A DNA stretch of 21,560 bases from a virus, in IMG/VR virus record IMGVR_UViG_3300006789_005435, positions 1-21,560 of that record; one strand, given 5' to 3'. The position numbers and the translations under genes are program-made. The notes below the pieces were generated by a model that had not been told where the DNA came from, did not search any database, and saw only the letters and a list, made by a program, of their open reading frames with translations. Numbering within the stretch: the stretch's first letter is position 1; every line of letters begins with the position of its first letter. Below, piece by piece: positions 3,099 to 21,560 of the stretch.

Positions 3099-4346
3099 TT
3101 ATCGACTGATTAGGTTGATGATTACTTCGCGGTCGGCACCGGTTGTACTGACATTTAGAGTGTCAGGAAAACCAGAGGTTGCAGTACCAGGCATTTGGTT
3201 CACAGTACCAAGAGACGAGTAATGTGTCTTGACTTTGTCAAGATTGTCTCTCGGATGTGTAATAAAGCCTAGGACCTGGCCCATAACGGTATTGATACCG
3301 GTACCAGTAGCTAATGTAAAGTTAGAGTCACCATCGACCTCAACGAGTGAACCGGGGCGAAGTAGCCCTGTCGCAGCGACATAATCGTGGACAGAAGTCG
3401 GAACGCTGTTGTAATGGTTGTAAGAAAGTACAGTACCGCTTACGCGTGCTGGAACGGTAGCTCCACCAGAGACCCAGAAGAAGGCAACGCCAGCTTCGTA
3501 ATCGAGGTAATAGTCACCGGACTGAGACATACCATCAACGCTAGTGCGCTCACGAAGTAGGAGCGTAGAATCATCAGCAGAGATTGTAGTTCTCGCAGTG
3601 CTCTTAGCCAACGCAGAGTTGGTTAGAGAAGCAGCAATAAAGTCTGTACTTGTAACACCGCTATAGCGAACAGTCGCAATAACGTTAGCAGCACTAAAGA
3701 GGTTGCCCGCACCATAGGTGAGAGTTGAGCCAGTAAGAGCCGCATCTAGTGTCTCGTCAGTCGACGCGGACGCCAAGTGAGGTACACGAATTACATAGTC
3801 GCAAAGGACCGCTACCTGATGTTGCATACGGAAGTTGTGGAACTTGAGATCCGCAGGCTTGAAGCCATCACGAGAGGTTGAGGCCCATACGTAGTAAGAC
3901 TGCGCAGCTACACCAACAGGCATAGATACAAACGCATCGGGCGTTTCGGCGGAACCGATTAGGCCTCTACTGCGAAGAGCAGTCTGAACTTGGGTTAGAG
4001 TGTAAGAAGTAGCAGCTGAAACAACCGCACCAGTGGTCAGGTCGATAACCTGCTCCGTAACATCGTTGGCAGTGTAGGTTAGGACTGTATCACCGCCAGC
4101 AGCAGCAGCCCAGCTTACACGGAGACCAGCAGGACAGACATCACCCTCACGGGTTAGACCAACGGCCTTTCCAGCAGCAACAACAATCCAATTCTCGTAG
4201 TGCTTATCCTGAAATACAACAGGGAGCCACGGAGCCGGAATAGAGTTGAAGTGCGGACGGATCCCCTCACTGTGCTCAAAGTTAGGAACGAGGTTACCTA
4301 CATGATCCCACTGTCTACTAGTAGGGGTATAACTGTTAAAACTCAT
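3099..4346 (-). CDS. Probable capsid-associated (decoration or stabilisation) protein
   Basis: A 415-residue protein lies between the protease-scaffold and the major capsid gene, the usual place of a head decoration or stabilising protein. The N-terminal 60 residues are aromatic and Pro-rich (PHFNSIPAPWLPVVFQDKHY). The next part, WIVVAAGKAVGLTREGDVCP, resembles the beta strands of phage head-stabilising proteins. The rest is rich in Thr, Ser, Ala and Val with alternating hydrophobic residues, so it is probably beta-sandwich. There is no membrane segment. The ATG overlaps the preceding TAA by one base, with AAGGAG upstream. The identity is inferred from position and composition; a minor capsid or tail-adaptor protein is possible. 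Confidence 0.72.
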   Translation of the reverse strand: MSFNSYTPTSRQWDHVGNLVPNFEHSEGIRPHFNSIPAPWLPVVFQDKHYENWIVVAAGKAVGLTREGDVCPAGLRVSWAAAAGGDTVLTYTANDVTEQVIDLTTGAVVSAATSYTLTQVQTALRSRGLIGSAETPDAFVSMPVGVAAQSYYVWASTSRDGFKPADLKFHNFRMQHQVAVLCDYVIRVPHLASASTDETLDAALTGSTLTYGAGNLFSAANVIATVRYSGVTSTDFIAASLTNSALAKSTARTTISADDSTLLLRERTSVDGMSQSGDYYLDYEAGVAFFWVSGGATVPARVSGTVLSYNHYNSVPTSVHDYVAATGLLRPGSLVEVDGDSNFTLATGTGINTVMGQVLGFITHPRDNLDKVKTHYSSLGTVNQMPGTATSGFPDTLNVSTTGADREVIINLISR

Positions 4347-6310
4347 TATGAATTCTCCTTGTCAGTTAGGTAATCCTTGATATCAAATCCAGAATCAATA
4401 AAGCCACGCTTCATCATGCTATCAACATAGTTGAGCGCCGCCTCTTCATCCTGGTCATCACAAATTGAAGTATATCTCTCAACCACTAGCTGGCCCCATC
4501 TGTCAAGATTGTCGACAGTTTTTGCTGCCTTCTTTCCGTCTTGAGCAAGAGTAGGATCATCGAGAACAACTTCTGCTTTTTCTGTTTTTAGAATCTCAAG
4601 TTCACAGGCAGTCTTTAGAAGATCACCGACTGAATCTTTGAGTTCTTGAACATTCTTTTCCTTGAGACTGTCTTTGATGGCCTCAAGTCCTCCTTCAGTA
4701 CCATTGAGTTTTTGAAGTAGGGAAACATGATCCGCGAGAAGAGTTTTGTACTCTCCCGAGATTTGCTCTAGCTGCTCATCAGCAGAGTCGGTTAGACCCT
4801 CCTGTGCAGTTAGTTGAGTTGCAAGCTGAGAAACTTGCTCCTCTAGAGCGGCGAGCTTATCGACCAGGGTGTTGAGGTCCGGAGCTTTCGCTACCTTTTC
4901 CTTTTCCTCTACGGCTGAAGTAAGCTGCGTAATCGCATCCTTAAGATCTTCAATCTCAAATTCTGAAGTACGCTTTAGTAAATCGGATAGTTCCATATCT
5001 AAATCGTCTTCCTTTGAATCTTTGTTAACTAGAACATATTCCCCGGTATCTTCTCCAGCTATGCTGAATTGATCCAAGGGACCATTGATCATCGCTCCGC
5101 GCAAACCTTTCTCCTCAAGTATAGCATGAAGTTTTGCGTGAACTTTATATACATCTGTAGGCATTTGCTCTTTTCTGGATAAAGACCATTCGTCTTCTTC
5201 TCGAACTGTATTATCCCATTCCCAATGAAGACCATCATGGAATCTAAGCAAAGCCTGTTGTTCCATCATTGTCTCTCCATCGAATGCATCTTCCCAATTT
5301 ACTTCGCGGCCCTCGTGTAGGTCTTTGTAAAGATCTAGGAGACAACTTTGAGTATCTGTCATTTGCTTAACTTCTACTTCTTTCTCTTCTTTGTCAGAAA
5401 CAGAGAGACCATCAAGAACGTCAGTATTTGCCTGCTGTATGCCATCAACAACACCAGCACTATCAGTAATTGAAAGCAGCTCGTAAGGAGTCGATCGTAA
5501 ATTGTCAGTATAAACCGGTGTAATTTCTTCAGCATTTTCATGTAAATCTACAATCCTCACACCTTCACTAACAGCCTCACTGTCTGCCGGAATATTTACA
5601 AAGGAGACCTCTTCGTATGAGAGATTTCCTGCGATAAGAAACATGGGCGCGCCATCAACCATTTCTCCAACATCATGCTCACAACGTCCATCACTAACCC
5701 AATCTGTTTTGCAACAAGAGCACACTGCGGCATCTGTGGCGGCGCGGGTAGACACAGTTTGGTAACGGCCATCAAGAACCTTTGTCATCGCGTCAGAGTC
5801 TGTCACTTGAAGTGTAGTTCGTCCAAACCCTAACCCCTGAAAGTCTTTAGAGAACAGAAGACCAGAGTGAACTAAAGATTCAACAGCATCGACAGCCTGC
5901 CACATTCTATTCATTGTGGGTAAAGCAGCTATAGCGTCCTTAACATCACTGTACTTGTCAGAAATACGACCAAACACTTCACCGGAAGTGTCTATATATT
6001 CTGCAGCGACTACACGACCCAAAGGAGCGTCATAAGTATTATGCTCTGTAAGAACAGGCTTGTTGAAGGATGATGTTCCTCCTCCGTCTTTGGAAACAAA
6101 GCTTTTGATACCGTCTCTCATTTTTGCAGGCAAGTACAAACCATTGTTTCGGGTGATGCGAGCAGCGTGCGTTGCTCGTACAGTAATCTCTACTCCAGTA
6201 CCCGCCCGGACAAAAGAATCAATCATATGAAGCTTTTGGTCCTTGTCCCATTGTTTTTTGAGGTCAGGGTTTAAGAGAATGGAGTCATAAATGTAAATTT
6301 TCTTAGCCAT
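4346..6310 (-). CDS. Prohead protease fused to capsid scaffold
   Basis: This 654-residue protein has a protease domain at about 1-260. Residues 84-100 (KPVLTEHNTYDAPLGRV) match the His-containing segment of HK97-type prohead serine proteases, with H90 as candidate catalytic His. YQTVSTRA near 183-190 places S187 at the usual catalytic Ser position, and YEEVSFVNIPAD (232-243) matches the conserved 'EVSlVt.PAn' strand. Between them is a Cys/His cluster, C197, C199, C200, C210 and H212, likely a zinc knuckle. The remaining 390 residues are acidic and coiled-coil (for example LVDKLAALEEQVSQLATQL), as expected of a scaffold. The enzyme should cut scaffold and capsid N-termini during head maturation. 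It overlaps the portal gene by eight bases. Confidence 0.82.
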   Translation of the reverse strand: MAKKIYIYDSILLNPDLKKQWDKDQKLHMIDSFVRAGTGVEITVRATHAARITRNNGLYLPAKMRDGIKSFVSKDGGGTSSFNKPVLTEHNTYDAPLGRVVAAEYIDTSGEVFGRISDKYSDVKDAIAALPTMNRMWQAVDAVESLVHSGLLFSKDFQGLGFGRTTLQVTDSDAMTKVLDGRYQTVSTRAATDAAVCSCCKTDWVSDGRCEHDVGEMVDGAPMFLIAGNLSYEEVSFVNIPADSEAVSEGVRIVDLHENAEEITPVYTDNLRSTPYELLSITDSAGVVDGIQQANTDVLDGLSVSDKEEKEVEVKQMTDTQSCLLDLYKDLHEGREVNWEDAFDGETMMEQQALLRFHDGLHWEWDNTVREEDEWSLSRKEQMPTDVYKVHAKLHAILEEKGLRGAMINGPLDQFSIAGEDTGEYVLVNKDSKEDDLDMELSDLLKRTSEFEIEDLKDAITQLTSAVEEKEKVAKAPDLNTLVDKLAALEEQVSQLATQLTAQEGLTDSADEQLEQISGEYKTLLADHVSLLQKLNGTEGGLEAIKDSLKEKNVQELKDSVGDLLKTACELEILKTEKAEVVLDDPTLAQDGKKAAKTVDNLDRWGQLVVERYTSICDDQDEEAALNYVDSMMKRGFIDSGFDIKDYLTDKENS

Positions 6311-11080: not shown

Positions 11081-11700
11081 TATCTGTTAATCCTATTCAT
11101 TTTCTTGGATTGATTAGAAGAGCCCAGCAGGGAGTGTGCAGCAGAAGCACCGACACCAGTGGCTGCAGCTAATCCTGTTCCTGTTCCTCCAGCTGCCCAT
11201 GCAATCATCGTTGAGTATCCTCCACGTTGCTGTTGTTTAGAAAGTAAATTTACACGCCGGCGAGCAGTTTTTTTTACTATCATCTTTCTGTATTGTCCTG
11301 AGAGAGTTTTCCTTCCTACTCCAGCACCAATAGCCCCCATTGTAAAGTTAAGGAGTCCAGAATCGGTTGGGCTCATAAAAGTATTCGCAAGACCACCAAC
11401 AGCCATTGTCGTAATCATACCACCATGTGTTGCCCAAATACTTTGATGGTTTTTGTGCATAAACCTCATGGCTTGTCCTCCAGCTTTCCAGGCCGGTCGC
11501 GCATATTTTAATGCGCTAACGCCAAGAGCTGTTTTGGCTCCCATACTAGCGCCAGAAACAAAGCCAGTTCCAAACTTATCGTTCCACACACCAGCCGCAA
11601 AGCCGCTCGCGAGTCCGGTACCTAGAGCGGCACCAGCCGTAACGATTCCAGTTTTTATACCTGCTTGAACAATACTTCTGCTTACAATAGGAGAAATCAT
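11080..11700 (-). CDS. Gly/Ala-rich hydrophobic protein downstream of terminase
   Basis: This 206-residue protein is dominated by Gly, Ala, Thr and Ser. It has glycine-zipper-like hydrophobic stretches at about 10-38 (IVTAGAALGTGLASGFAAGV), 93-108, 115-129 and 162-190. A very basic segment, KMIVKKTARRR near 139-149, interrupts them, and the C-terminus is basic. It resembles in style the two Gly/Ala-rich proteins on the other side of the terminase gene. The segments could insert into membranes, so an ejected pore or virion-internal protein is possible. No family is recognised. TAATG overlaps couple it to the terminase gene and to the next gene. Confidence 0.75.
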   Translation of the reverse strand: MISPIVSRSIVQAGIKTGIVTAGAALGTGLASGFAAGVWNDKFGTGFVSGASMGAKTALGVSALKYARPAWKAGGQAMRFMHKNHQSIWATHGGMITTMAVGGLANTFMSPTDSGLLNFTMGAIGAGVGRKTLSGQYRKMIVKKTARRRVNLLSKQQQRGGYSTMIAWAAGGTGTGLAAATGVGASAAHSLLGSSNQSKKMNRINR

Positions 11701-14700
11701 TAGATCTTACCTCTCTTGGGCTTCCCTCTTCTTCGAATACCAGAAGATCTAGAGGTAGCTTTCTTAGTGTGTTTCCATTCGGTATCCGAACCCCATCCGG
11801 ATCGAATGGTACCAGCATGGCCTTGGGGGGTCCTTTCAAAAGACCTTCCTCCAGGTTGTGCTTGTCTTCGTTGATGTTCTCTCTGTTGAACGTAACCAGG
11901 ATCATAATTTACTTCTAAAAACCCTGGCATCCCGGCACCGCCAGGAAAGTTCTTTTTAAAGTCATCCATTGCCTCTTTCGGCAGCGGACCATCATTATTA
12001 GCAAACCTTGCGCCGATGCCCTCTGTAAAGCCAACATTTGGACTACTCATAAGTCGGGGTGCATAATCAGACATCTCTAAAATATAAGCGATTAGGGCAA
12101 GATTAAGAGCATCGAGTCGGTGATCTCCAACCTTCGCATCGTTCATGCCATACCTTGGAATACCAGTAGGACTGATCCCGTCTTGAATGTAATTTAAAAG
12201 CTGTTTGTGAAGAGTAATGTCTTTATAAGAAAAACGAATTCTTCCTTGTTCGAATTGTCGGACTGAGTTTTGGATAAGAAAAGCCTTTGCATGTGTCTTC
12301 TCTCTTCTTCTTGTTACAGGATTTCTGTATTCAACCTTACTTCCGAAATCATAAGCCTTTAGACGATCATAAAGAGCAGCACCTTCCGATCCTGGGTTCA
12401 CAAACCTTTGTTTATGAGACCATGCTTGCAAGGATTCAATCTGCGACCCGCCATAACCTCTATCGACATAGATGAATTTGGGAGACCACTTTTGATTCAA
12501 ATCAATAATGACTTCCATTGCTTTGTGCTGTTGATAATTTTGTTTAGAGATATTGACAGCTTCAACTACCCAGAATTCAAAGTCTGGTGCATCAGGGTTT
12601 AGTCCAGTTACAACTACCTCTACTCCTGCATTTGTGTTCCAATCAACACCTATAGAGTAAATCCAAGACGGTTCTCTGCGATTAAGAGAATACTTCTTAT
12701 CTCCAACTGTTACCTTTGCTATCTGTCCATAAGAATATGGCTTCTCTGCTTCTGCAACATGGCGTGGAGAATACATACCAGCAACCTGGTCAATAAATAC
12801 AGCCATGTATTCTTGCATGAAGGAGGTTTCGTCGGTTCCCTCGGCTTCAATTTCATCTTTAACTTGATCCCAGTGATCAAGGACCGTAGACGGAAAGTAG
12901 AATTCTTTGACATGTGCTGAGCCTGTGCACTGGTTATAGAACCACTCTCTCTTACCTGTAGGTGTACTGGAGGACATAACAGCAACATCCGGTGTTGTCG
13001 CCTGGATAGGCTGAACAACCTGCTTAATGTCCTCTGCAGGCATGAAGTCGGCCTCGTCAAGAAGGATGAGATCTGCCGAATTGTGGACCACAACTCCATC
13101 ATTAACTATAAAGTTGTGTGTGCCCCAAACCTCTATATCATAAAGTGTATCAACCCCTTTGCTTTTGATAGACTTGATAGCATCATAACGAAGATCATTA
13201 AAACTCATATTCGGAAAGCCCGCACTGTTTGCTAACGATAAGATTTCTTTAGACTTTTCTTCTTTCCCAGGAATAAGTCCGATAGACTTTAGAAGTCGCT
13301 TTGCTTCATTCACAGAACGGATAGTAACCACATATTGTCTTTTGTGTTTCTTGCCCTTTAGGTATTTTTCTCTAGTTCGTAAAGTTCCGAAAACACCAAA
13401 GCTGGTCACTAGTTGCAAAAACTGAGAGGCCAGATCACAACTTGTAGATGTAAACCCTATCTCAACTTGTTTGTTCTTAGCAACAAGCCAGCCATCTGTA
13501 GCTATTAGGCCTCTTAATAGAGCTGCTCTAACTGCAGGACCAGAGGCCAGGAGCTTAGAAGACAACTTCTTCTCTGGGGCTAGACTTCCCCATATTCCAG
13601 CATCGTCTAAAAGCTCTGCAATTTCTATATTTCTAGTTCGTGGTGCCTTGATACGAATATCAACTGCTTTTGAGTTTTCCTTTTGGTAACTACTCCAGTC
13701 TACGTCCCAATTATCGAGAATTGAACAAAATAAAGATTCGATTCTTTTATTAGCGACAGTAAATCTAACCGAACTGTGTTTTATAGCTTTTCTTCCACAA
13801 CTTCCATCACCAGCCATTAGGCCAACAAACAGTGCTTCCTCTTCTGTGAAATGAACACCCTGTTTGTCAAGAGTGAAATTCTTTACTGTAGCAAGATGAT
13901 TACTCTTTTTTAAATCTTTCAGTTTATTCCAAGAAAAGGTAGATTTCCCTAATTCAGAATATTTCTTTCTTATTCCTCGAGTAACAGTGCTGCTCAGAAG
14001 CCTGTGATCTTTTGAACAAACAAGACTTCGGCCAGAGCGTAACCGAACTTCATATTTTTCCTTCTCTGTAGTATCAAACACTTTGGAAACCATAGAGGTG
14101 ACTACCTTTCCATTGTTTGTTACAGAGAGGATGAGGTCATTCTTCTCGATATTAGAAATCTTCTTTCGTGACCCATCGGCCATCCAAACAAGAGTTTCTC
14201 CAGAAAGACACTGTCCACGAAGAGTGGACGCATTCTGTCCTGTACTAGCTCCTGTGGTGAAGCCCTTGATTGTTGCACCATTAGTAAAGACAAGCTCATG
14301 ATAGGGAGTCTTTACGTTCCTCACAAGCTTAATGTCTGGATTTCTCGAAACAAGCTTCTTGATCTCTTCGAAAATCATAGAGATTTGAGCCAAGAATGGA
14401 GATACAACTAAAATCCGAGGGCCTCTCATGATCGGGGTGCCAGCGGCATCCACCTCATCACTTTTAACATAGGCGGTAATTGCTTTTCTAAGAGTAGAGA
14501 CACACTCTTCGAATGTCTTTCCAGAACGCCGGCCAGCTCTCGATACTCTGTATTTTGCGGTACATTTAGCGACCACCCTCTGGTGATCACGAAAGTCTAC
14601 ACCCAGGACTTTTTTAGCCCAGAGGACAGGGTCTCTTACAATTCTCAATTGTTCTATTTCTTCTTCTGTCAGTTCTTTGACTAGTTCTCTTTTTAAATCA

Positions 14701-15227
14701 TAACTTTCAGGAATAAAATCACACTTGACAAGAAAGGCAGTTAATGCTTTCCAAGGAATCCATCCTTCGATCTTCTGGGTTCTGCTCGAAAAGCCACCCT
14801 TGCATGTCTGGCATACAGCATCAGAGATTTGTTGCTTACTTTCTCGATAGACCCTTGTGTGGTCTTGGTCATTTTGACAAATACCATAATAAACAGAAGT
14901 TCCCACCAAGCATTTGTCTTTGTGCTTTTCTTTCAGAATTACTCTCTGGCCTTTGCGCAGTCGCCCAATCTTTTCTTTGAATTGATCATCCCCAAAAACG
15001 TTTACTCCCCTTACAGAAATTTGGTATTCATTCCTTCCAGCATATTTTTGCAAGTGATCCATCTGACAAACTACACAGGAATTGTCAATATTCTTCGTTT
15101 TAATATTGTATTTTTCTTTGAAAAACTCTACCAAATCAGAACTAGGACGCATAGAATAGTCTAGGTAAGCTACCCCGTATTCGTTCTCCATGTAAAGATA
15201 TTTCATATCCTCGTGAAGATAGTCCAT
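11700..15227 (-). CDS. terL: Terminase large subunit (ATPase and nuclease), interrupted by an intein
   Basis: The precursor has 1175 residues; removing the intein (residues 340-716) leaves 798. The ATPase has Walker A RAGRRSGKT (230-238) and Walker B LILLDEAD (720-727). The RNase-H-like nuclease shows its expected acidic residues in SIGVDWN, in FIYVDRGYGG and in KVGDHRLDALNLAL. The protein is the packaging motor that drives DNA into the prohead through the portal and cuts concatemers. The N-terminal ~200 residues form an extra domain with cysteine pairs (C51/C54, C139/C142, plus C106 and C117), probably metal-binding. A basic C-terminal tail (SSGIRRRGKPKRGK) ends the protein. The ATG overlaps the upstream TAA, with GAGGA five bases before. 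Without splicing, the Walker A and Walker B segments are separated. Confidence 0.95.
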   Translation of the reverse strand: MDYLHEDMKYLYMENEYGVAYLDYSMRPSSDLVEFFKEKYNIKTKNIDNSCVVCQMDHLQKYAGRNEYQISVRGVNVFGDDQFKEKIGRLRKGQRVILKEKHKDKCLVGTSVYYGICQNDQDHTRVYRESKQQISDAVCQTCKGGFSSRTQKIEGWIPWKALTAFLVKCDFIPESYDLKRELVKELTEEEIEQLRIVRDPVLWAKKVLGVDFRDHQRVVAKCTAKYRVSRAGRRSGKTFEECVSTLRKAITAYVKSDEVDAAGTPIMRGPRILVVSPFLAQISMIFEEIKKLVSRNPDIKLVRNVKTPYHELVFTNGATIKGFTTGASTGQNASTLRGQCLSGETLVWMADGSRKKISNIEKNDLILSVTNNGKVVTSMVSKVFDTTEKEKYEVRLRSGRSLVCSKDHRLLSSTVTRGIRKKYSELGKSTFSWNKLKDLKKSNHLATVKNFTLDKQGVHFTEEEALFVGLMAGDGSCGRKAIKHSSVRFTVANKRIESLFCSILDNWDVDWSSYQKENSKAVDIRIKAPRTRNIEIAELLDDAGIWGSLAPEKKLSSKLLASGPAVRAALLRGLIATDGWLVAKNKQVEIGFTSTSCDLASQFLQLVTSFGVFGTLRTREKYLKGKKHKRQYVVTIRSVNEAKRLLKSIGLIPGKEEKSKEILSLANSAGFPNMSFNDLRYDAIKSIKSKGVDTLYDIEVWGTHNFIVNDGVVVHNSADLILLDEADFMPAEDIKQVVQPIQATTPDVAVMSSSTPTGKREWFYNQCTGSAHVKEFYFPSTVLDHWDQVKDEIEAEGTDETSFMQEYMAVFIDQVAGMYSPRHVAEAEKPYSYGQIAKVTVGDKKYSLNRREPSWIYSIGVDWNTNAGVEVVVTGLNPDAPDFEFWVVEAVNISKQNYQQHKAMEVIIDLNQKWSPKFIYVDRGYGGSQIESLQAWSHKQRFVNPGSEGAALYDRLKAYDFGSKVEYRNPVTRRREKTHAKAFLIQNSVRQFEQGRIRFSYKDITLHKQLLNYIQDGISPTGIPRYGMNDAKVGDHRLDALNLALIAYILEMSDYAPRLMSSPNVGFTEGIGARFANNDGPLPKEAMDDFKKNFPGGAGMPGFLEVNYDPGYVQQREHQRRQAQPGGRSFERTPQGHAGTIRSGWGSDTEWKHTKKATSRSSGIRRRGKPKRGKI
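13080..14210 (-). other. Intein with LAGLIDADG homing endonuclease in TerL
   Basis: This in-frame 377-codon insert begins with Cys (CLSGETLVWMADGS, splicing block A) and ends VVVHN, followed by Ser as the first C-extein residue. The other splicing blocks are visible: a CSKDH segment (precursor 404-408) as block B, and YDIEVWGTHNFIVNDG before the terminal His-Asn. Two endonuclease motifs, GLMAGDG (469-475) and GLIATDG (573-579), lie about 100 residues apart, as in single-chain LAGLIDADG enzymes, and both keep the acidic residue. All splice residues are intact (Cys1, penultimate His, terminal Asn, Ser+1), so active protein splicing is expected. The insertion point is three residues before the Walker B strand of the terminase ATPase, a conserved site typical of inteins. 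Confidence 0.95.
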
Positions 15228-20607: not shown

Positions 20608-20614
20608 AGTCTGA

Positions 20615-20620
20615 CCTCCT
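20615..20620 (-). promoter_or_regulatory. Shine-Dalgarno AGGAGG for the GTG start at 20607
   Basis: A full AGGAGG lies seven bases upstream of GTG 20607. It is one of the strongest ribosome sites in the window and marks the beginning of the leftward block. Confidence 0.65.
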
Positions 20621-20641
20621 GGGAAAATATATGTTACATAG

Positions 20642-20652
20642 ATTTTATACCA
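20642..20652 (-). promoter_or_regulatory. Possible leftward promoter (extended -10)
   Basis: On the minus strand TGGTATAAAAT contains an extended -10 (TGnTATAA) about 35 bases upstream of GTG 20607. No good -35 is visible, only a T-rich stretch. The position suits the promoter of the whole leftward block, but AT-rich sequence gives many such matches by chance. Confidence 0.35.
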
Positions 20653-20699
20653 TATGCTGGAAACTTAGAAAAAATATATGAAAAATAGAGAATAAAAAT

Positions 20700-20727
20700 G
20701 AAATGACTTTATAGAAAGGCGAAAATG
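20700..20727. repeat. Imperfect direct repeat, copy 1
   Basis: The copy contains TATAGAAAGGCGAAAATG (20710-20727) preceded by GAAATGACTT. It matches copy 2 at 20742-20768 with a few substitutions and one single-base indel; the TATAG cores are 41 bases apart, about four helical turns. It may be an operator pair or a repeated phage-specific promoter. Confidence 0.5.
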
Positions 20728-20741
20728 CAAGAAATCAAAAA

Positions 20742-20768
20742 GAAGTGCTCTATAGGAAGGTGAAATTG
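20742..20768. repeat. Imperfect direct repeat, copy 2
   Basis: The copy contains TATAGGAAGGTGAAATTG (20751-20768) preceded by GAAGTGCTC. The 18-base core matches copy 1 at 15 positions. A weaker third TATAGGA follows at 20778-20784. Confidence 0.5.
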
Positions 20769-20849
20769 TGGGGAAAATATAGGAGTAGGTATGATAGATG
20801 GGTGAGTTCCGTACTCTCGAGTTTGGAGCCCACCCCCTCTCTCACCCCA

Positions 20850-20867
20850 GTGTCCACCCCCGGACAC
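20850..20867. repeat. Small hairpin GTGTCC / GGACAC
   Basis: A perfect 6-bp inverted repeat (20850-20855 and 20862-20867) encloses a six-base C-rich loop, at the start of the GC-rich region. It may be part of the leader of the first small gene. Confidence 0.4.
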
Positions 20868-20870
20868 ACG

Positions 20871-20893
20871 CCTCTGTGCTCACCACACAGAGG
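20871..20893 (+). terminator. Hairpin CCTCTGTG / CACAGAGG, possible terminator
   Basis: A perfect 8-bp inverted repeat (20871-20878 and 20886-20893) with a seven-base loop is followed on the plus strand by a pyrimidine tract (TCTCTTCCCCTTCGTCT). It occupies the same relative place before the first small gene as the 13-bp hairpins before the second and third, although the sequence differs. Confidence 0.4.
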
Positions 20894-20911
20894 TCTCTTC
20901 CCCTTCGTCTA

Positions 20912-20931
20912 TGCCTTGGGTGAGCAAGGCA
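20912..20931 (+). promoter_or_regulatory. Leader hairpin touching the ribosome site of small gene 1
   Basis: TGCCTTG (20912-20918) and CAAGGCA (20925-20931) form a perfect 7-bp stem with a six-base loop. The stem ends directly at the ATGGAG ribosome site. The same arrangement with a different stem sequence precedes the other two small genes, so an RNA structure controlling translation is likely. Confidence 0.5.
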
Positions 20932-20943
20932 ATGGAGTACAGC

Positions 20944-21147
20944 ATGTCCTCGGATATGTTCTACCGCCTCGTCCAGCTCCGGCTGGAAGCAGAGACCCGC
21001 AAGAACTCTTCGGAGTTCTTCCGGGCGCTCTACTTCCTTCGTGCCGCTGTGCACGCGGCAACCCTCGCCGCCACCGACGCGCGGCTGGAGTGGGTTGCCG
21101 CTCGGCACCTGTACTCGGCTGAGCTGATCCTCAGCCGAGCGCGGTAG
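20944..21147 (+). CDS. Small protein 1 of the rightward array, unknown
   Basis: This 67-residue protein starts MSSDMFYRLVQLRLEAETRK. It is mostly helical, rich in Ala, Leu and Arg, and has no membrane segment. Codons are GC-rich with C or G in the third position, unlike the AT-richer leftward block. The frame is open up to an ATG at 20911, but I chose ATG 20944: it lies six bases after GGAG, and all three small genes share the arrangement hairpin, ATGGAG, 5-6 bases, ATG. Its first residues (MSSDMF) resemble those of its neighbours (MSDDMF, MSNNIV). The TAG stop runs straight into the first 138-base repeat. No family is recognised; an early phage-host interaction protein is a guess. Confidence 0.62.
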   Translation: MSSDMFYRLVQLRLEAETRKNSSEFFRALYFLRAAVHAATLAATDARLEWVAARHLYSAELILSRAR

Positions 21148-21158
21148 TCTTCTGCACT

Positions 21159-21189
21159 CCCCATCCACACCACACAGGTGTGGGTGGGG
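21159..21189 (+). terminator. 13-bp GC hairpin in repeat copy 1
   Basis: CCCCATCCACACC (21159-21171) pairs with GGTGTGGGTGGGG (21177-21189) through 13 pairs, one of them G-U, around the loop ACACA. It starts 11 bases after the stop of small gene 1. There is no T-run after it, so it may act as a terminator of the GC-rich type or as an RNA processing or stability element. Confidence 0.55.
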
Positions 21190-21259
21190 AGATCAGAGGG
21201 TGAACTCGTCCACCTCTCTCATCTTGGTCCTGTCCCAGGATGCCACCTCACCCAGTAAC

Positions 21260-21279
21260 TGCCATTTGACAGGATGGCA
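21260..21279 (+). promoter_or_regulatory. Leader hairpin touching the ribosome site of small gene 2
   Basis: TGCCAT (21260-21265) and ATGGCA (21274-21279) form a perfect 6-bp stem with loop TTGACAGG. The ATGGAG ribosome site begins at or next to the stem end. The TTGACA in the loop is not placed to act as a -35 for a promoter of this gene. Confidence 0.5.
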
Positions 21280-21290
21280 ATGGAGCTCCC

Positions 21291-21383
21291 ATGTCTGACG
21301 ACATGTTCGAGATCCTCCTCGCCATGGCTGGCTCAGCCATGGTGACGACGGTCTTTTGGGGGGGCATCTACCTGACTTGGTAG
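21291..21383 (+). CDS. Small protein 2 of the rightward array, 30-residue hydrophobic peptide
   Basis: A 30-codon frame reads MSDDMFEILLAMAGSAMVTT followed by VFWGGIYLTW and TAG. Apart from the first seven residues it is one hydrophobic segment, so a single-span membrane peptide is likely. GGAG lies five bases before the ATG. The N-terminus resembles those of the two neighbouring small genes. Within it, CCATGGCTG and CAGCCATGG form a perfect 9-bp inverted repeat, so an RNA function is an alternative. It is very short, and coding status rests on the shared leader, the start and the complete frame. Confidence 0.5.
   Translation: MSDDMFEILLAMAGSAMVTTVFWGGIYLTW
21322..21342. repeat. Perfect 9-bp inverted repeat inside small gene 2
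   Basis: CCATGGCTG (21322-21330) and CAGCCATGG (21334-21342) are separated by only three bases. A T-run follows about ten bases later (TCTTTTGG). The structure is stronger than chance codon use would suggest and might terminate or regulate transcription within the gene. Confidence 0.5.
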
Positions 21384-21399
21384 ATGTCTCTTCTGCACT

Positions 21400-21430
21400 C
21401 TCCATCCACACCACACAGGTGTGGGTGGGG
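21400..21430 (+). terminator. 13-bp GC hairpin in repeat copy 2
   Basis: CTCCATCCACACC (21400-21412) and GGTGTGGGTGGGG (21418-21430) enclose the loop ACACA. The one change from copy 1 in the stem turns a C-G pair into a U-G pair, so pairing is kept. Confidence 0.55.
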
Positions 21431-21499
21431 AGATCAGAGGATAAACTCGTCTATTCTCTCATCTTGGTCCTGTCCCAGGATGCCACCTCACCCAGTAAC

Positions 21500-21519
21500 T
21501 GCCATTTGACAGGATGGCA
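21500..21519 (+). promoter_or_regulatory. Leader hairpin touching the ribosome site of small gene 3
   Basis: The hairpin is identical to the one before small gene 2: TGCCAT (21500-21505) and ATGGCA (21514-21519) with the loop TTGACAGG, directly before ATGGAG. Confidence 0.5.
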
Positions 21520-21530
21520 ATGGAGTCAAC

Positions 21531-21560
21531 ATGTCTAACAACATCGTTGAGCGCCTCAAC
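21531..21560 (+). CDS. Small protein 3 of the rightward array (cut by window edge)
   Basis: Only ten codons are visible, MSNNIVERLN. GGAG lies five bases before the ATG, and the whole leader is the second copy of the 138-base repeat. The start resembles those of small genes 1 and 2. Nothing can be said about the function. Confidence 0.5.
   Translation, partial: MSNNIVERLN

Follow-up and report, generated by a model that had tools for sequence, protein, structure and literature searches.

A bacterial virus, large and unclassified, carries at the right end of the fragment analysed here an array of very small genes separated by a repeated leader. In coding-strand RNA this leader folds into a series of hairpins. 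In a sister contig the array comprises five small genes and five leaders (A–E), three of them near-identical and two diverged. The array is real and unusual, and its RNA fold is firmly supported; the processing of its transcript and the swapping of its genes, discussed below, are mechanisms that we infer from it.

The stretch of DNA that we analysed, here called the window, is the whole of IMG/VR record IMGVR_UViG_3300006789_005435 (21,560 bases). Its minus strand carries a capsid, portal and terminase module, and the array lies on the plus strand. The capsid has 30–35% identity to its counterparts in Acinetobacter phage ME3, Moorella phage MTATph1 and Bacillus KLEB27-3 (jumbo) phage, and no close relatives were found by searches with the portal, terminase, capsid or gene 6. 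The large terminase subunit (window 11700–15227, minus strand) is split by an intein with a LAGLIDADG endonuclease, at approximately residues 336–716, and a distant relative, whose portal is 29% identical, carries a group I intron (L006 6101–6536). The sister contig, IMGVR_UViG_3300025103_000107 (L003; also L004/L009; 29,402 bases), is 99.97% identical to the window and extends beyond its edge, and a third contig (G001, 151,482 bases) contains the array from leader C onward together with the remaining phage. The contigs break inside the array, the window stopping in gene 3 and the 151-kb contig ending in leader C. The genome of this phage measures at least 151 kb and probably about 172 kb, if the circle closes as we suppose.

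An earlier note on the window had described two leader copies, here leaders A and B, which proved to be 96% identical (E 3.5e-60); the period of 240–241 nt and the positions of genes 1 to 3 were also as it gave them. Its expectation that the array runs past the right edge was borne out by L003, in which three additional leaders follow, together with genes 4 and 5. Near-identity of the leaders, as it was worded there, applies to three of the five, whereas the other two have diverged in sequence and kept the fold. The further copies that it anticipated exist beyond the edge in the sister contigs; scans of viral contigs, genome contigs and annotated phages gave none outside the same phage species. 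Neither the covarying sense-strand RNA structure of the leader nor the origin of the shared first residues in a start-codon hairpin was recognised in the note.

Table 1 Features of the array and its leaders. Plain positions refer to the window; those preceded by L003 or L010 refer to the respective contig.
Feature	Position	Strand	Remarks
Divergent intergenic region	20608..20800	+	AT-rich; between leftward endolysin-like gene and GC-rich array
Leader U0 (of gene 1)	20801..20931	+	GC-rich, structured, shorter, without H1, ends in H4; fold z −4.3
H4 of leader U0	20912–20931	+	arms TGCCTT/AAGGCA, 6/6 paired
Gene 1	20944..21147	+	67 aa, MSSDMF...; start codon inside hairpin
Leader A	21148–21285	+	links gene 1 stop to gene 2 ribosome site
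H1 of leader A	21148..21200	+	7-bp lower stem, 2x2 internal loop, 15-bp upper stem; adjoins gene 1 stop
H2 of leader A	21195..21218	+	8-bp hairpin; 5' arm common to H1 lower stem
H3 of leader A	21220..21242	+	8-bp hairpin; 3 compensatory pairs in copies A/B vs C, 0 broken
H4 of leader A	21260..21279	+	11 nt upstream of gene 2 start
Gene 2	21291..21383	+	30 aa, one hydrophobic segment
Leader B	21389–21525	+	links gene 2 stop to gene 3 ribosome site
H1 of leader B	21389..21441	+	5 nt past gene 2 stop
H2 of leader B	21436..21459	+	GATA/TATT vs GGTG/CACC in A: two compensatory pairs
H3 of leader B	21460..21482	+	hairpin
H4 of leader B	21500..21519	+	11 nt upstream of gene 3 start
Gene 3, first 10 codons	21531..21560	+	cut by window edge
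Gene 3, complete in sister	L003 2720–2833		37 aa, one hydrophobic segment
Leader C	L003 2843–2980
Gene 4	L003 2989–3288; L010 107–337		99 aa in L003; small acidic protein
Leader D	L003 3293–3395
Gene 5	L003 3405–3530		41 aa, one hydrophobic stretch
Leader E	L003 3535–3665
Gene 6	from L003 3898 (3898–6045)		up to 715 aa

In L003 the order of elements is U0, gene 1, A, gene 2, B, gene 3, C, gene 4, D, gene 5, E, a further structured stretch and gene 6 (Table 1). Genes 1, 2 and 3 are each preceded by a GGAG ribosome site. Family searches with genes 1–6 gave weak matches only, none of them convincing, and an annotated phage collection contained no match to the array or to gene 6. The intergenic region upstream of U0 presumably holds the array promoter; it contains a weak TATGAT −10-like box at about position 20790, and a consensus scan gave no promoter above chance. 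Within L003 1700–4300 we found two promoter-like sites where 1.9 were expected, none conserved between leaders. The array contains no convincing terminator: no T-run follows H1, the terminator scan stayed at chance level, and the sole plus-strand terminator-like match (L003 3845–3862) lies beyond leader E and within shuffle expectation.

Every leader folds far better than its shuffled versions, with z values from −4.3 to −6.9, and the fold is anchored at both ends, as H1 begins 0–9 nt past the stop codon at five of five stops and H4 ends 9–12 nt upstream of the start codon at five of five starts. H1 is a 22-bp hairpin (7 + 15 bp) with a 2x2 internal loop, in which 100% of the cells are paired over the five copies. 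Six of its pairs show compensatory change across these copies, all paralogues of one phage species, as holds for the leader covariation as a whole; the covariation score was reached by 0 of 500 shuffles, and pairing dropped to 43–65% in slid registers. Compensatory changes between copies were seen in H2, H3 and H4 as well, an example from H3 being CATCTTGG/CCAGGATG vs CATCACAG/CTGTGATG. Because of these changes we consider that the fold is selected for itself, and leaders D and E, which have lost most homology, retain it. H2 shares one arm with the lower stem of H1, so that only one of them can form at a time, and every copy has retained the two.

A covariance model of H1 scored the real copies at 66–83 bits in the sense orientation vs 26–48 bits in antisense (81 and 39.5 bits for leader A), and the G-U pairs of the leader are present only in the sense RNA, which indicates that the fold belongs to plus-strand RNA; a structure of the antisense strand or at the DNA level is disfavoured. 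A search of Rfam 15 with the leaders gave no match above the gathering score, and the weak microRNA-like matches obtained are generic hairpins. Over the 151-kb contig and the window, H1 is confined to this array. Scans of viral contigs for the leader pattern returned only contigs of this phage and a few chance or coding matches, and genome contigs gave 38 chance-like matches, scoring at most 20 bits with the H1 model vs 66–83 bits for the real copies.

The frame around the genes extends into their first codons. The start codon of each gene is contained in the 5' arm of a small hairpin, for example CAUGUC-UACG-GACAUG; the tetraloops are UACG, UAAC, UGAC and CUCG. This location of the start codons explains why the array proteins share their first residues. 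The hairpins occur in all five genes, with at least 6 bp in genes 1, 2, 4 and 5 and a weaker form in gene 3, compared with 7% of 124 control genes of the same phage. Shuffling gave P values of 0.01–0.14 for individual genes, and the start-codon hairpins are supported as a set, not gene by gene.

While the leaders are constrained, the genes between them vary, as the earlier note had proposed and as the comparison of sister phages corroborated. Window and sister differ at 5 of 19,226 bases compared (19.2 kb), all five in the 204-nt gene 1, where four of the substitutions fall within nine bases and may represent one event. Between the sister and G001, the 9.65-kb flank downstream of gene 4 contains no substitution and one 5-bp repeat indel, whereas the gene 4 proteins are only 53% identical, in a comparison of metagenome assemblies that could collapse or hide tandem copies of gene 4. 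The two alleles are identical in the shared part of the leader and in the first 21 nt, have approximately 60% DNA identity thereafter, and end in an identical tail. Both are open, the difference between their lengths is divisible by three and their dN/dS is approximately 0.4, for which reasons we take gene 4 to be a real protein gene. Variation of the cargo at two loci, gene 1 and gene 4, is thus well supported, and it is also right behind the start hairpin that the sequences of the paralogous units A and B part.

The gene 4 protein has a conserved HDCG.C..C motif and an SSB-type C-terminal tip, DSDIPF or DDDIPF. Both alleles end in DIPF, and one ends in exactly DDDIPF, the hub peptide of bacterial SSB (PMC5872125). 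The phage encodes its own SSB, and when G001 and the window were translated in six frames, this SSB and the gene 4 protein were the only two with such an end. Judging from this motif, the protein is possibly an SSB-tail mimic; its AlphaFold model (pLDDT 39.5) was uninformative.

The array opens a larger early region of approximately 10 kb (L003 1950–12000, from about 20800 in the window), with a GC content of 50–66% and a GC3 mostly of 0.63–0.88, vs 0.28–0.42 in genes sampled elsewhere. Its genes almost avoid AAA (2% vs 55%), CAA (6% vs 60%) and AGA (3% vs 44%), which are the codons read by the three tRNAs of the region (Lys-UUU, Gln-UUG and Arg-UCU); other AT-rich codons, e.g. TTA, are likewise avoided. 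A second repeated hairpin, with the consensus GGTAGGCCGAAAGGTCTACCTAAACTTGTGAGAG, is present in about eight copies among small genes and tRNAs (L003 6260–11048); in G001 it is confined to the early region, and other viral contigs gave two isolated exact matches to its core. Directly after one copy lies a truncated tRNA-like piece (L003 6780–6830) with an acceptor GTGAG/CTCAC and the T-arm GGTGGTTCGATTCCAC. A predicted Pistol self-cleaving ribozyme (L003 7094–7155) scored 47.3 bits, above the Rfam gathering score. The coding RNA of gene 6 (L003 3898–6045, z −7.4) and of gene 5 (z −4.5) is more folded than synonymous-codon shuffles, an excess also seen in some late genes (capsid, z −4.6).

Several known systems resemble parts of the array. 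The early genes 1.0 and 1.1 of phage T7 are separated by R1.1, a 60-nt hairpin with an internal loop (PMC6121014), and H1 is similarly a long hairpin of about two helical turns with an internal loop (7 + 15 bp, 2x2) at five of five intergenic positions between consecutive early genes, which here would lie on one transcript. Unlike the T7 sites, H1 directly follows each stop codon and is succeeded by two or three further hairpins, and the repeats are near-copies with variable cargo between them. Start-associated sequences (SAS/ESAS) of cluster K mycobacteriophages (PMC3203893) are likewise repeated inverted-repeat elements placed just upstream of many small non-structural genes; the leader differs in its length of about 138 nt, its single contiguous array and its anchoring to the preceding stop as well, and the 13-bp SAS GGGATAGGAGCCC is absent from the window and L003, where the best match has 3 mismatches. 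A diversity-generating retroelement was ruled out, since the reverse transcriptase PF00078 is absent.

Another parallel is the promoter early stem-loop (PeSL), a mobile regulatory cassette of T4-type phages (Arbiol 2010; Comeau 2014, cited in PMC4503421). As PeSLs are outlined there, the array shares with them repeated non-coding stem-loop cassettes between small variable early genes. PeSLs are associated with modular shuffling of the flanking genes, and the gene 4 allele replaced between sister contigs may reflect such shuffling here. It differs from that outline in lacking an early promoter and terminator, in its tandem hairpins with compensatory changes and in belonging to a phage that is not T4-type; strict identity with PeSLs, and a promoter or terminator in each leader, were ruled out by the promoter and terminator scans at chance level.

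We propose that an early operon of repeated units begins with the array. In each unit a start module (H4, ribosome site and start-codon hairpin) would precede a variable small gene, and H1–H3 would follow it as a 3' module. One long transcript would be made across the array, on which the long interrupted duplex of H1 would act as a processing and stabilising signal, most likely by being cleaved by RNase III of the host and by protecting 3' ends; we looked for an RNase III encoded by the phage and found none, so the host enzyme would have to act. Every tiny gene would thereby end up on a message of its own, bounded by hairpins and provided with a standard start site. As the processing and initiation signals would all lie in the leader and the first 20 nt or so, the cargo could be exchanged without retuning its expression, and the repeated leaders could provide the homology for recombination. 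Such recombination between leaders, swapping small genes, is plausible because the phage encodes its own RecA, which could supply this activity. A duplex after every stop and a start module before every start, with no above-chance promoter and no convincing terminator, fit a processed early transcript, and early expression would agree with the place of the array, which opens a divergent module with its own codon usage and tRNAs. Host takeover, raised in the earlier note as a function of such peptides, would be conjectural. From these arrangements we infer cleavage and stabilisation of the transcript, recombination between leaders and an action of the small proteins. We give an even chance to this reading, in which leader hairpins divide an early polycistronic transcript and cap the pieces, in the way of the T7 RNase III sites, so that each small gene is an independent and exchangeable unit. 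Against it, the H1 loop is 2x2 rather than the 4/5 loop of R1.1, a start-codon hairpin alone would reduce initiation, pure processing does not explain the competition between H2 and the lower stem of H1, a host RNase III would be needed, and the element was found in one phage species only, so that all its covariation is between paralogues.

Alternatively, the leaders could be chiefly recombination cassettes in the manner of PeSLs, with homology shuffling small genes between phages and the RNA fold secondary. Such shuffling would produce what is seen at gene 4, where alleles of 53% identity are enclosed by the same leader with 21 nt of coding start on one side and the same tail on the other, and it would agree with the unchanged 9.65 kb downstream, the clustering of the window/sister changes in gene 1 only, the divergence of units A and B just past the start hairpin and the presence of a phage RecA. 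Nevertheless, the units have neither the promoter nor the terminator that define PeSLs as outlined in PMC4503421, the compensatory changes indicate that the fold is selected, leaders D and E kept this fold while losing most homology, and one swapped locus was found, with no donor; we therefore place this reading somewhat short of an even chance. Integron-like single-strand DNA recombination sites used by an integrase would also explain small promoterless genes with palindromic repeats between them. However, the attC core GTTRRRY/RYYYAAC is absent from all six leaders, the tyrosine integrase PF00589 is absent from G000, G001 and G002 (controls were detected in 14 of 14 cases), and both the G-U pairs and the covariance model scores favour a fold of the sense RNA rather than of DNA, so that we give this idea almost no credence. 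An array without function, produced by ordinary tandem duplication and by assembly effects, with a collapsed or chimeric assembly behind the gene 4 difference, is also very improbable: contigs do break within the array and copies A–C look recently duplicated, but the diverged copies keep their pairing through compensatory changes, and the gene 4 alleles are open, with a multiple-of-three length difference and dN/dS of about 0.4.

Two other explanations take the fold as regulatory. The leader could be a translational operator: with H4 and the start-codon hairpin as binding sites for a protein of the phage or the host, all units would be switched together. In T4, gp43 is the repressor of its own translation and acts at a hairpin operator whose loop reads UAAC (PMC3014915), a precedent to which the start-codon hairpins (five of five genes, at least 6 bp in four, vs 7% of 124 controls) and the constant 9–12 nt between H4 and the start would correspond. 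The loops differ between units, though, we have no candidate binding protein, and H1, the strongest element, would be left unexplained at the stop side, making an operator unlikely. A switch between the H1 lower stem and H2, acting as an attenuator or antiterminator on transcription or translation into the next gene, would account for the shared arm and for the retention of both exclusive stems in all copies; we consider it distinctly improbable, as the leaders lack a U-run terminator and neither a ligand nor an anti-terminator was identified.

If transcript processing and exchange of the small genes both operate, the array may be a phage 'socket', that is, a self-contained RNA frame that turns any inserted small gene into an independently processed and initiated early message. 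The exchanged cargo would extend from the start hairpin to the stop codon, and the whole would be an integrase-free analogue of gene cassettes maintained by selection on RNA structure. We offer this as a tentative and rather doubtful generalisation.

In large phages the small genes that change fastest are arranged in arrays, and little is known of how such arrays admit new genes without losing control of expression. In the present array one RNA frame was duplicated and diverged, and compensatory changes have preserved it while its cargo changes between near-identical phages. If confirmed, this would provide a testable rule for modular early gene expression and would mark the cargo, including the protein ending in DDDIPF, as the part under diversifying pressure. 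That near-identical sister phages differ mainly in these genes hints at a plug-in platform for early genes that change rapidly.
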